Shown: one piece after another, positions 17,498 through 25,130 of the stretch
Position numbering within the stretch: position 1 is the stretch's first letter
How the letters are laid out: each line of letters opens with the position of its first letter
Assembly: GCA_947478405.1 (NCBI GenBank)
Contig: CANJVX010000003.1
Span: 62,001 to 126,000 of the forward strand
Direction of reading: 5' to 3'
Origin: Beijerinckiaceae bacterium
Lineage (GTDB): Bacteria > Pseudomonadota > Alphaproteobacteria > Rhizobiales > Beijerinckiaceae
Length of the DNA stretch: 64,000 nt
Made by a program: the position numbers and the translations under genes
Notes under the pieces: model-generated
Database searches by the model: none
Told to the model about the DNA's origin: nothing
The model's input: only the letters and a program-made list of their open reading frames with translations

Positions 17498-17803
17498 TCA
17501 GCCGCCACTTTTCACATAGGCCCAGAGAAGATCGATTTCTTCTGCCGAGAGTTTGCCTTCCCATGGCGGCATGCCGGTGCCTTTGCCTTTGCTGACAGAG
17601 GTCACAAACCGCGCTTTGTCGTCTTGCGGAAATTTGCGCAAATCAAATGCCAGGCCGGGATTCATCATGTCTTTGCCATGGCATGTCGCGCACATGTCAT
17701 TGTAGATGAGATAGCCTTCTTGCACGCCATCGGCTGAAGCGGGGAGCGGCGCGAAAAGAGCGCCAATCAAGAGACCGGCGCCAATCAGTCCCTTGTTCAT
17801 CAT
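17498..17803 (-). CDS. Small periplasmic c-type cytochrome, distal gene of ThDP-enzyme operon
   Basis: The product of about 101 residues has a Sec signal peptide (MMNKGLIGAG, then a hydrophobic stretch, cleavage after PASA), one haem-binding CATCH motif near residue 37 and a probable axial Met in GTGMPPWEG. It is a class I monohaem cytochrome c of the CcoP/cbb3-domain type and would carry electrons in the periplasm. Its ATG overlaps the stop of the ThDP-enzyme gene (TGATGATG), so the two are translationally coupled and probably work together. The partner redox protein is inferred from position. Confidence 0.88.
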   Translation of the reverse strand: MMNKGLIGAGLLIGALFAPLPASADGVQEGYLIYNDMCATCHGKDMMNPGLAFDLRKFPQDDKARFVTSVSKGKGTGMPPWEGKLSAEEIDLLWAYVKSGG

Positions 17804-19731
17804 CACACTTTCTTCGTGCGCATCTGCGCACCACTGATTGGGGGGATCCATGGCTCGGCCACTTGGTTCACGCCGCGCCGGCCAACCTGCACATCGAGTA
17901 GATAGGGCTTGCCTTCAATGGTGGCTTTGCGCGCCCGCGCCAAAGCTTCTTTCATCTGCGCCGGATTGTGTACGACCTCGGCGGCGACACCGAAGCCATT
18001 GGCAATCTGCGCCATATTCATATCGGGTTTGCCCAGATAGCCATTCACCATCTGCCCCGTTTCGACCATGCGGCCGGACGGCACATTGGCAATGGTGCGC
18101 GAATGCGGGCCACCGTAGCCGTGGTTGTTATAGACGACCGTGATGACCGGCAGCTCAAGGCGCGCCATGTTCCACAAAGCGTGTGGACCAAAGAGGAATG
18201 AGCCGTCGCCCACCATGCAGATGACCTGCTGGTTGGGGCGTGCAAGCTTCACGCCCGCCGCTGTGCCGACACCCGAGCCCAGATGTCCCCCATAATAGAA
18301 GAATAATTCGCGGCCACCGACAGGATTGAAGTCGAAGGAATGCATCACATTCGCACCGGCTTCGTGAATGATGATTGCATCAGGATCGGCAAATTGTGCC
18401 ACTTCCCATGTCACGCGATCGGCAATGAGCGGCGCATTGTTCCATTCGGGTGAATTGACAAAGCCCATGCGCAGCGAGCGCGCACGCTCGGTAAATTTAC
18501 GCACCTCTCCTGCCCGTGTGGCAGCCTCTTCACGCAGCTTGGCCGTCATGAGTTGTTCGACAGCAGCGTAAAGATCATCCAGTCCCAAGCCCACATCGCA
18601 AACGAGCGGGACGTCGGTCGTCATGACCTTCCCCATATTGTTATAATCAATGCGCATATCGATGAATTTCACGCCGCGCGCGACGATCGGGTTCACGCCA
18701 TTATGCTGCATCTTGTTGCCGACATTGATGACGACATCATAATTTTTGGGCCAAGTGATCGAGGCCAGAGTGCCTGCCGGCGCATTGGCCACAAAGAGCG
18801 GATGCGCTTCGGGGAAATTGGCCCAGAGCTGGCGCATTTGCGTGACCGGCATGCCGAGTAATTCGGCAAGTTTGATCGCTTTGGCTGCCGCCTTGGCCTT
18901 GGTGACTTCATCCCCCACGATCATAATCGGCATTTTCGCTTCAACCAGCATTTTGGCTGCGCGAATGACTTCATCGGGGTTGGGGCGCACACGCATGCGC
19001 GTGTCATAATGGCTTTGCTGGATGATTTCCGTACGCGTGCGCTCATCCGTATAATCCGAATGCCATGTCAGATAGGCAGGGCCATGCGGGGGCGTCCATG
19101 CGGTTTTGAACGCATGGCGCACGGTTTCGGGAATCATGGAAGGGCCACGCGCCATCCACGAATATTTCGTGATGGGTTGCACCACCTGTTCCTGATTGGC
19201 AATTTCTTCAAATCCGTCGCGGCCTGCGCGGCGTGATTGATCGGTGCGATAGGAATAAACGACGAGCGGCGTCTGTTCCTTGTGTGCATTGTAAATCTGG
19301 CCCATGGCATTCATGAGCCCGACAGACCCCGCCTGCATGACAATGGCCGGCTTTTGCGAGGCTTTGATATATCCTGCCGCCATCGCGGCACCCGGGCCTT
19401 CGTGCGGCGAGATGATATATTGCAATTGCGGGCGATCGACGAGCGCTTCGTAGAATTGCGCATCTTCGCTGGCTGAATTGCCGAAGACATATTTCACGCC
19501 GCAGGCAGTGAGTTGTTCGGCAAAGCAGGCGCCGCCTGTGCCTTGGAATTGTTTCACCGGATTGTTTTGCTGCGTGGCGGGGGCAGCGGCGTCCTGCGCA
19601 TTGGCGGATGTTGAAATAGCATCCAGTACATTTTCGGCAGCGGCGACAGTAATCCCGGCTTTGGTCATATTGTCGAGAAAGCCGCGGCGCGAAATGCCTT
19701 CAGAGAGATATTTATAGACGAGATCTTTCAT
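17803..19731 (-). CDS. ThDP-dependent enzyme of the acetolactate synthase fold with twin-arginine leader
   Basis: The 642-residue product has the three domains of the POX/acetolactate synthase group. The N-terminal pyrimidine domain has catalytic Glu111 in SPHEGPGAAMAAGY. The central domain covers about 250-390. The C-terminal pyrophosphate domain has GDG (508-510) and Asn-Asn (535-536), 24 residues apart, for ThDP-Mg binding. Unusually, it starts with a twin-arginine-like leader (ISRRGFLDNM, RR at 15-16) and a possible ANA cleavage site near 44, so it is probably exported by Tat. It lies between two periplasmic cytochrome genes. Decarboxylating oxidation of a 2-oxo acid or cleavage of a ketone with cytochrome c as acceptor is an inference; the substrate is unknown. 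The leader's hydrophobic part is weak. Confidence 0.85.
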   Translation of the reverse strand: MKDLVYKYLSEGISRRGFLDNMTKAGITVAAAENVLDAISTSANAQDAAAPATQQNNPVKQFQGTGGACFAEQLTACGVKYVFGNSASEDAQFYEALVDRPQLQYIISPHEGPGAAMAAGYIKASQKPAIVMQAGSVGLMNAMGQIYNAHKEQTPLVVYSYRTDQSRRAGRDGFEEIANQEQVVQPITKYSWMARGPSMIPETVRHAFKTAWTPPHGPAYLTWHSDYTDERTRTEIIQQSHYDTRMRVRPNPDEVIRAAKMLVEAKMPIMIVGDEVTKAKAAAKAIKLAELLGMPVTQMRQLWANFPEAHPLFVANAPAGTLASITWPKNYDVVINVGNKMQHNGVNPIVARGVKFIDMRIDYNNMGKVMTTDVPLVCDVGLGLDDLYAAVEQLMTAKLREEAATRAGEVRKFTERARSLRMGFVNSPEWNNAPLIADRVTWEVAQFADPDAIIIHEAGANVMHSFDFNPVGGRELFFYYGGHLGSGVGTAAGVKLARPNQQVICMVGDGSFLFGPHALWNMARLELPVITVVYNNHGYGGPHSRTIANVPSGRMVETGQMVNGYLGKPDMNMAQIANGFGVAAEVVHNPAQMKEALARARKATIEGKPYLLDVQVGRRGVNQVAEPWIPPISGAQMRTKKV

Positions 19732-19745
19732 AGCGTCGTCTCCTC

Positions 19746-20039
19746 TCAGCGTTGTTGTGGCTTGGCGCGTGGTACATCAAGTCCAAATTCACGGCCTAGA
19801 AACGCGGCCATTGTCTTCACTTCATCCGTGGTCCAGATGCCGCCGCGTGCCATCATGCGATAGGCAGTGGCTTCCCAGGCGCCGGCGTTTTGGCGCTGGT
19901 CACGCCAGATGGAATCGGTATGGCATTGCGAGCATTTCTGCATGACAAGATCGCGGCCTGGATCGGCAGGCTTGTCTTGGGCCAGCGCAGAGGCGCTTAC
20001 CGTATAGAGAGCAACAAAAGCAAAGATTGGGCGCAGCAT
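19746..20039 (-). CDS. Small periplasmic c-type cytochrome, first gene of ThDP-enzyme operon
   Basis: The product of about 97 residues has a signal peptide (cleavage near ASALAQ) and one CSQCH haem motif around residue 36. Its C-terminal part (TTDEVKTMAAFLGREFG) resembles small cytochromes that accompany periplasmic molybdenum or quinoprotein dehydrogenases. It lies 14 nt upstream of the ThDP-enzyme gene on the same strand. I prefer the ATG at 20039, eight nt after GAGGAG; an ATG at 20045 is only two nt from it. With the downstream cytochrome it makes a three-gene periplasmic redox operon. Confidence 0.87.
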   Translation of the reverse strand: MLRPIFAFVALYTVSASALAQDKPADPGRDLVMQKCSQCHTDSIWRDQRQNAGAWEATAYRMMARGGIWTTDEVKTMAAFLGREFGLDVPRAKPQQR

Positions 20040-20130
20040 GGCCATATCTCCTCCCCGAAATGCCGATTTTGATCCAGCTTGGAGGAAAGCCTAGCTGGGA
20101 CGTACAGGCTGCGCAATTGAGACTTTATAC

Positions 20131-24071: not shown

Positions 24072-25130
24072 TTACTTGGCGATAATCAACTTGCCCAAAC
24101 GCTCGCGCACATCTTTGGGTGTGGCGGCCGCGTCTTCGATCACCTTTTTCACAAATTTGCCGTCTACTGGGCTGGTGTTCATGCCTGCCTGTTGCATCTC
24201 GGCACGGAAGGCGGGTGTCATTGCCATTTGCATGAAAGCTTTTTCGAGAATCTCGGCGCGATCTGCCGGAATTTCTGGCGGGGCTGCGAAGGGCAGGGCC
24301 ATGAAGAAGGGGTTTTCGGCAAATTCGAGATAGGCGCGATCTTTCGGATCTTTTACCAATTCACGGCCGGTGGGCACATCCTGCAAGTTCGCCATGCGTG
24401 TGTTGCGGGCAAATTGTACAAGCACGCGTATTTTCTTTTCATTCCACAATTGTGGACGTGACGCCATAATCGCCGAAATGTCGATCACCTGACCATCGAT
24501 TTCACCGCGCTCCATCGCGAGCCAGATATCATTCGCGCCCGGGAAGCCGCGTACGACATCCGTATTCACACCGAGCAATTCTTTGGCAATCAGCGCGAAG
24601 GTCGTGTTGGTTGAGCCGACGCCCACACCTGCCAGATTGACTTTCGTCTTGCGCGCATCTTCGATGTTCTTCACGGGGCTCGTCGCCATCACGACGAGCA
24701 GGTAAGCATCATCGGCATAAGACGACAGCGAGCCGAGCCATGTGAGCTTCATCGGGTCGAATTGCACATTGGCATCGCCGCAATAATAGAGCTGCGGAAT
24801 GGAGCGGCTGACAGTGGCAATGGTGAGCCCGTCACGCGGCGTTGAATTGGCGAGGCGATTGGCGGCTGACAGGCCACCGGCACCCGGCTGGTTTTGCACC
24901 ACCACACTCGGGTTGCCTTCAATGTGATTGGTGAGATGGCGGGCCACAATGCGTCCGGCAATATCGAAAATACCACCGGGCGAGAAAGGCACGACGAGCT
25001 GTACGGTTTTGCCTTTGTAAAAGTTGGAATCAGCAAGTGACGAGCGTGGCACGATGGCGGCGGCGGTGACGCCTGCAGCTGCAGCACAGATCTGGCGGCG
25101 CGTAAAAACTTTCGTCGTCCTGGACGTCAT
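24072..25130 (-). CDS. Bug/TctC family solute-binding protein 2, with Arg-Arg leader
   Basis: The 352-residue product shows FYKGKTVQLVVPFSPGGIFD and PSVVVQNQPGAGG, typical of the family. Its leader TRRQICAAAAGVTAAAIVP has a twin arginine followed by an alanine-rich hydrophobic part, so it may use Tat instead of Sec. It is probably co-transcribed with the downstream exported hydrolase (17-nt gap). No membrane subunits are nearby. Confidence 0.9.
   Translation of the reverse strand: MTSRTTKVFTRRQICAAAAGVTAAAIVPRSSLADSNFYKGKTVQLVVPFSPGGIFDIAGRIVARHLTNHIEGNPSVVVQNQPGAGGLSAANRLANSTPRDGLTIATVSRSIPQLYYCGDANVQFDPMKLTWLGSLSSYADDAYLLVVMATSPVKNIEDARKTKVNLAGVGVGSTNTTFALIAKELLGVNTDVVRGFPGANDIWLAMERGEIDGQVIDISAIMASRPQLWNEKKIRVLVQFARNTRMANLQDVPTGRELVKDPKDRAYLEFAENPFFMALPFAAPPEIPADRAEILEKAFMQMAMTPAFRAEMQQAGMNTSPVDGKFVKKVIEDAAATPKDVRERLGKLIIAK

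Follow-up and report, generated by a model that had tools for sequence, protein, structure and literature searches.

A candidate Tat-exported ThDP enzyme encoded with two small c-type cytochromes in a Beijerinckiaceae bacterium

ThDP enzymes are, to our knowledge, treated as cytoplasmic. Pyruvate oxidase, whose ThDP-dependent oxidation feeds the respiratory chain with quinone or oxygen as the acceptor, is cytoplasmic and uses FAD. The enzyme of the periplasmic sulfite dehydrogenase SorAB is exported by Tat. Benzoylformate decarboxylase is treated as intracellular in one source (PMC10384211). For the 2-oxoacid:ferredoxin oxidoreductases, another describes a stable radical that results from one-electron oxidation of the ThDP intermediate and, in an enzyme with a single [4Fe-4S] cluster, a requirement for that cluster in oxidative but not in non-oxidative decarboxylation (PMC5020499). 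The open-access literature searched contained no description of a ThDP enzyme that is exported and paired with a cytochrome c, which is weak evidence of absence, as subscription papers lay mostly outside the search.

The window analysed here is a stretch of 64,000 nucleotides from a Beijerinckiaceae bacterium (GenBank assembly GCA_947478405.1). We propose that one of its loci encodes a periplasmic respiratory module, in which a Tat-exported, cofactor-loaded ThDP enzyme would oxidise a 2-oxo acid or ketone and pass the electrons to cytochromes; to this reading we assign a probability of roughly 55%.

The three-gene unit and its close relatives

Inspection of the minus strand at 17498-20045 revealed genes for a cytochrome c, a full ThDP enzyme that carries an SRRGFL leader, and a second cytochrome c (Table 1), the same trio, at the same positions, that an earlier note on this DNA had described. 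The upstream cytochrome and ThDP genes are separated by 14 bases. The open reading frame listed for the downstream cytochrome begins at 17851, within the ThDP gene; the ATG at 17803 is likely the better start and would give a 1-base overlap with the ThDP stop codon. A promoter scan returned two promoter-like sites (1.9 in shuffles), none of them on the minus strand, and a terminator scan returned six terminator-like sites (4.3 in shuffles).

Table 1. Coordinates of the features of the three-gene unit in the window
Feature	Coordinates	Strand	Remarks
Small c-type cytochrome, CSQCH	19746..20045	-	First gene of unit; SorB/quinohemoprotein-amine-dehydrogenase-like haem domain
ThDP-dependent enzyme, benzoylformate-decarboxylase/acetolactate-synthase fold, N-terminal leader	17803..19731	-	642 aa
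Putative Tat leader of ThDP enzyme	19594..19731	-	Residues 1-46, SRRGFL at 14-19
Small c-type cytochrome, CATCH, Cytochrome_CBB3 type	17498..17803	-	Likely start overlaps ThDP stop codon

Scanning a single genome for each species yielded 29 loci, of which 28 (L011-L038) were kept as relatives and one, a 25% match (L039), was left out; since the scan relied on two short peptide patterns, remoter relatives would be missed. Group A comprises 22 relatives with 77-98% identity, some of them near copies of each other, from Alpha- and Betaproteobacteria MAGs named Beijerinckiaceae, Rhizobiales, Rhodospirillales, Comamonadaceae, Burkholderiales, Betaproteobacteria and Sterolibacterium. Group B comprises six relatives with 37-39% identity to the window protein and a leader that starts as in the window; one (L033) is titled acidobacterium. 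The leader and a downstream haem gene are present in 22/22 group A loci and an upstream haem gene in 21/22 (L016 is cut by its contig); the outcome named in the earlier note as refuting, homologues mostly without leader and cytochromes, was sought and was absent among these close relatives. In group B, a two-haem cytochrome lies downstream in five of the six loci, the contig of L037 being cut. Searches with stricter cut-offs gave 1/385 at class level (E 1e-120) and 3/199 at family level (E 1e-60), and no plasmid homologue of the window protein was found at E 1e-50.

The window protein belongs to the ThDP-dependent decarboxylase-type (POX/ALS/BFD) superfamily, with N, middle and C domains in one chain: it matches Pfam TPP_enzyme_N (PF02776; 84.5 bits, cut-off 26.8), TPP_enzyme_M (PF00205; 74.0 bits, cut-off 30.4) and TPP_enzyme_C (PF02775; 86.6 bits, cut-off 21.9). 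The catalytic Glu111 and the ThDP/Mg motif residues D509, G510, N535 and N536 are invariant in 29/29 sequences, that is, the window protein and its 28 group A and B relatives. Among solved structures, benzoylformate decarboxylases and similar lyases (1bfd, 6a50 and 4q9d) come closest, at ∼25% identity, and decarboxylase-type lyases are also the first structural matches of the predicted model, itself of moderate confidence (pLDDT 70.5, pTM 0.63). Among the 25 listed of the 63 NCBIfam curated models matched by the enzyme, none reached its cut-off; the benzoylformate decarboxylase model scored 235 (cut-off 493) and the pyruvate oxidase model 138 (cut-off 742). At the position aligned with what we take to be the active-site His70 of benzoylformate decarboxylase, Ala or Ser is present in 23/23 group A sequences and Ala in 6/6 of group B, and His is present in a protein of a separate lineage, C (L019:10288-12246).

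Acetolactate synthase and pyruvate oxidase, fold relatives that bind FAD, are among the family matches of the enzyme, which would favour an exported protein that carries FAD like pyruvate oxidase and whose flavin, rather than its ThDP intermediate, reduces the cytochromes. In both sequence and fold, however, the enzyme is best matched by benzoylformate-decarboxylase-like proteins, a group without FAD, and this reading appears quite unlikely.

The upstream cytochrome has 99 residues and a hydrophobic Sec-like signal ending in ALAQ. Its HMM matches to SorB (2.7e-4) and QH_alpha (1.2e-4) are weak and fall under the curated cut-offs, and no solved relative was found by sequence at E 0.1. With its predicted model (pLDDT 77.1), Foldseek ranked SorB (2blf_B) first, with a probability of 0.95 and a poor E value of 0.46, and quinohemoprotein amine dehydrogenase third, also with a poor E value (1.8). 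The downstream cytochrome matches Cytochrome_CBB3 (54.9 bits, cut-off 27), and among solved proteins it comes closest to the cytochrome domain of a type II quinohemoprotein alcohol dehydrogenase (1kv9; 2.1e-7). Both haem domains of the group B two-haem cytochrome match the profile of the group A upstream cytochrome; that this protein is a fusion of the group A pair was rejected, given that both halves are of the upstream type and neither matches the downstream profile.

Co-occurrence of leader and cytochrome in two lineages

A survey of genome neighbourhoods, which the earlier note had suggested, brought out a separate ThDP lineage (C) that repeats the pairing, with better-scoring Tat leaders. 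In L019, a second ThDP protein is encoded just downstream; it has a PRRGFL leader, shares ∼25% identity with the first and is accompanied by a cytochrome of its own. Relatives in the C lineage were found on contig C53 of the window's own genome, on Caballeronia zhejiangensis plasmid NZ_CP084287.1, where the gene after the ThDP gene is annotated as a c-type cytochrome, and on a Novosphingobium plasmid. Remoter C homologues (32-39%) are mostly leaderless and lack a haem neighbour. Fourteen further stretches were classified later, outside the 91-row count given below. Each of the 11 newly classified C copies is followed on the same strand, within 210 bases, by a haem gene; the leader is visible in seven of them, the 5′ end being cut in L141 and the ORF start lying too far upstream in three. 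One stretch (L144:1506-5794) carries a tandem pair of C-lineage ThDP and cytochrome units, in a genome that holds at least four C copies.

An automatic table of 98 homologues contained 48 rows with leader and haem gene, 41 with neither, seven with the leader only and two with the haem gene only. Five rows were dropped: L113, a part duplicate; the incomplete ORFs of L043, L062 and L064; and L089, which has a haem gene and is truncated at its 5′ end. L046 and L059 were reset to leaderless (stray RR); L127, its own 5′ end cut by the locus end, was reset to leader-bearing after its near relative L083; and L118 and L092 were reset to haem-positive on inspection, the cytochrome of L092 lying on the opposite strand. 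The flanks of L037 and L093 were not scorable. The curated count of 91 ThDP homologues comprises 50 with leader and cytochrome, 40 with neither, one with the leader only (L091) and none with the cytochrome only (Fisher's p 4e-25, although the rows are related and the tree therefore weighs more). A same-strand CxxCH ORF within 700 bases accompanies 50/51 leader-bearing ThDP genes compared with 2/96 other ORFs of at least 300 aa, a control set from the relatives' loci that includes some non-genes. Chance is an unlikely cause of the pairing.

For leaderless L094, a haem ORF starts at a distance of 778 bases, beyond the 700-base limit. Three leader-bearing proteins, L091, L134 and L147, have no cytochrome gene in the stretch seen. 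In the B-like L147, which has an SRRGF leader, the 1300 bases downstream contain no haem gene and the contig extends upstream for just 104 bases; L135 is truncated at the 5′ end. L134 (35% identity, outside the 91-row count) bears a leader, with no haem gene in its flanks, and in this stretch (L134:1501-4899) the gene that follows the ThDP enzyme encodes an ethylbenzene-dehydrogenase-like molybdenum enzyme of the DMSO-reductase type, itself with a twin arginine.

The exported enzyme could instead be non-oxidative, decarboxylating its substrate to an aldehyde or cleaving an acyloin, with the product then oxidised by a separate periplasmic dehydrogenase that the cytochromes serve. The closest solved relatives are lyases that need no electron acceptor, and the molybdenum enzyme beside the divergent L134 would suit such an arrangement. 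Against this, the unit consists of the ThDP gene and two cytochrome genes in group A and of the ThDP gene and a cytochrome gene in the C lineage, no further redox enzyme being encoded in between, and a cytochrome neighbour occurs in 0/40 leaderless homologues. We regard the non-oxidative alternative as unlikely.

In a tree of 93 proteins built with the leader omitted, the leader label needs two changes. The A/B clade (32 rows) and the C clade (21 rows) each have an SH-aLRT of 99, and the C lineage is placed among leaderless relatives. A single clade of all leader-bearing rows was rejected by the AU test (p-AU 0.0025); the tree comes from a quick search and contains long branches. Given that the leader-bearing proteins fall into two groups, the simplest reading is that the arrangement of leader and cytochrome was probably gained twice, although one gain followed by losses may also account for it.

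The SRR of the putative leader lies within the first 25 residues in 22/22 group A proteins and recurs in 6/6 of group B; cleavage is predicted by eye near ANAQ/D. The Tat prediction that the earlier note had proposed as a check lent no support at the window itself, its leader matching neither TIGR01409 nor Pfam TAT_signal (PF10518). Ten leaders were scored: the TIGR01409 cut-off was passed by two, each from the C lineage, and the PF10518 cut-off by none. The core of the window leader is weak, with a best 12-residue mean hydropathy of 1.32 and charged residues nearby; the corresponding medians are 1.37 for A (n = 24), 1.365 for B (n = 8) and 1.565 for C (n = 20), and leaderless N-termini (n = 33) have a median of -0.08 and a highest value of 2.27. 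A tatC gene was found in the window's genome.

The weak hydrophobicity of the window leader, and its lack of a score with the Tat models, would be in keeping with a leader that does not export, a cytoplasmic enzyme and adjoining cytochromes unrelated to its reaction. However, the twin arginine is invariant across A and B, which are otherwise 37-39% identical, two C-lineage leaders exceed the TIGR01409 cut-off, and leader and cytochrome gene travel together in two lineages; this reading seems very improbable. We infer Tat export of the window ThDP enzyme from its secreted partners, the invariance of the twin arginine and the parallel provided by the C lineage.

Genome context and hints at the substrate

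The window's genome carries 12 ThDP-fold genes (17 matches merged). Ten have neither leader nor haem neighbour, and two, in the window and on contig C53, have both, so that this genome carries the A and the C version. It also carries two COX1 homologues. Among 16 genomes tested from the 28 A/B loci, a C-lineage copy is present in 15 (in G587 as a 5′-cut fragment) and absent in G841. In 250 Burkholderiales genomes, A/B occurs in three and C in five, with all three inside the five; when the centre genome is excluded, C is present in 2/2 genomes with A/B and in 2/247 others (p 2e-4). By contrast, a set of 372 Alphaproteobacteria contains two more genomes with an A/B-like protein (G202 and G294), neither of which has a C match.

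The earlier note had taken nearby Bug receptors and a hydroxyacid dehydrogenase as context for organic-acid metabolism. At E 0.001, however, the 3.03-Mb draft genome yields 97 TctC/Bug (PF03401) matches, or about one per 31 kb, so that a few such receptors nearby say little, and they were dismissed as a substrate clue. The dehydrogenase is of the 3-hydroxyisobutyrate-dehydrogenase type, lies on the opposite strand outside the operon and, judged by position, is not among the neighbour clusters common to at least four of the 29 loci; it lends no support either. One TctC-family receptor in the window (24072-25130, minus strand) bears a twin-arginine-like leader in which FTRRQI precedes an alanine-rich stretch.

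Recurrent neighbours in Burkholderiales-type group A loci, with names taken from L017, are the alpha (seven loci) and beta (six) subunits of a ring-hydroxylating dioxygenase, a thiolase (six) and an OB-fold protein (six), which hint at aromatic metabolism. The Beijerinckiaceae loci have other neighbours, and neighbour genes vary between lineages. Shared neighbours did not settle the substrate. The C module of the window's own genome (L072, on contig C53) has as neighbours TctC/Bug-like receptors and genes of the UbiD, fumarylacetoacetate hydrolase, CoxG, enoyl-CoA hydratase and molybdenum hydroxylase families. The C53 neighbours and the Burkholderiales dioxygenase would fit aromatic carbonyl compounds, a substrate class that is our guess.

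Proposed mechanism and comparison with known systems

For the preferred reading, periplasmic oxidation coupled to the cytochromes, the following steps are envisaged. The ThDP enzyme would fold, bind ThDP and Mg in the cytoplasm and leave by Tat; we propose that twin-arginine leaders occur in two lineages because Tat carries folded proteins and ThDP is made inside the cell. In the periplasm, attack on the carbonyl of a 2-oxo acid, alpha-hydroxyketone or diketone would yield the enamine. A c-type haem, the SorB-like one first, would then take the enamine electrons one by one with release of a carboxylic acid, and the CBB3/c6-like cytochrome would pass them to a haem-copper oxidase. Given that the operon has no other redox enzyme, the electrons would most simply come from the ThDP reaction. 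The more specific proposal that c-type haem, outside the cytoplasmic membrane, directly oxidises a ThDP enamine, and that this evolved at least twice from cytoplasmic enzymes, is put forward tentatively, as possible rather than probable.

If true, the module would provide energy from carbonyl compounds without their import and would give Tat export of a ThDP enzyme a clear reason, and c-type haem would join lipoamide, FAD and iron-sulfur clusters among the electron acceptors of vitamin B1 chemistry. The module is testable with small gene sets, and the C-lineage version is present on two plasmid records of named isolates.

The window enzyme shares with benzoylformate decarboxylase and related ThDP lyases the three-domain fold, the catalytic Glu and the ThDP/Mg motif, but differs from benzoylformate decarboxylase in its leader, its cytochrome partners and an identity of only ∼25%. 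It has the fold of pyruvate oxidase. With the 2-oxoacid:ferredoxin oxidoreductases it would share oxidation of a ThDP intermediate by one-electron carriers (PMC5020499); those enzymes, however, have their own ThDP architecture, iron-sulfur clusters, ferredoxin, a cytoplasmic location and CoA as acceptor, none of which is seen here. The arrangement resembles that of SorAB, in which an enzyme is likewise encoded beside a small dedicated cytochrome c, and the upstream cytochrome is itself SorB-like, but the catalytic subunit of SorAB is a molybdenum protein, whereas the partner here is a ThDP enzyme.
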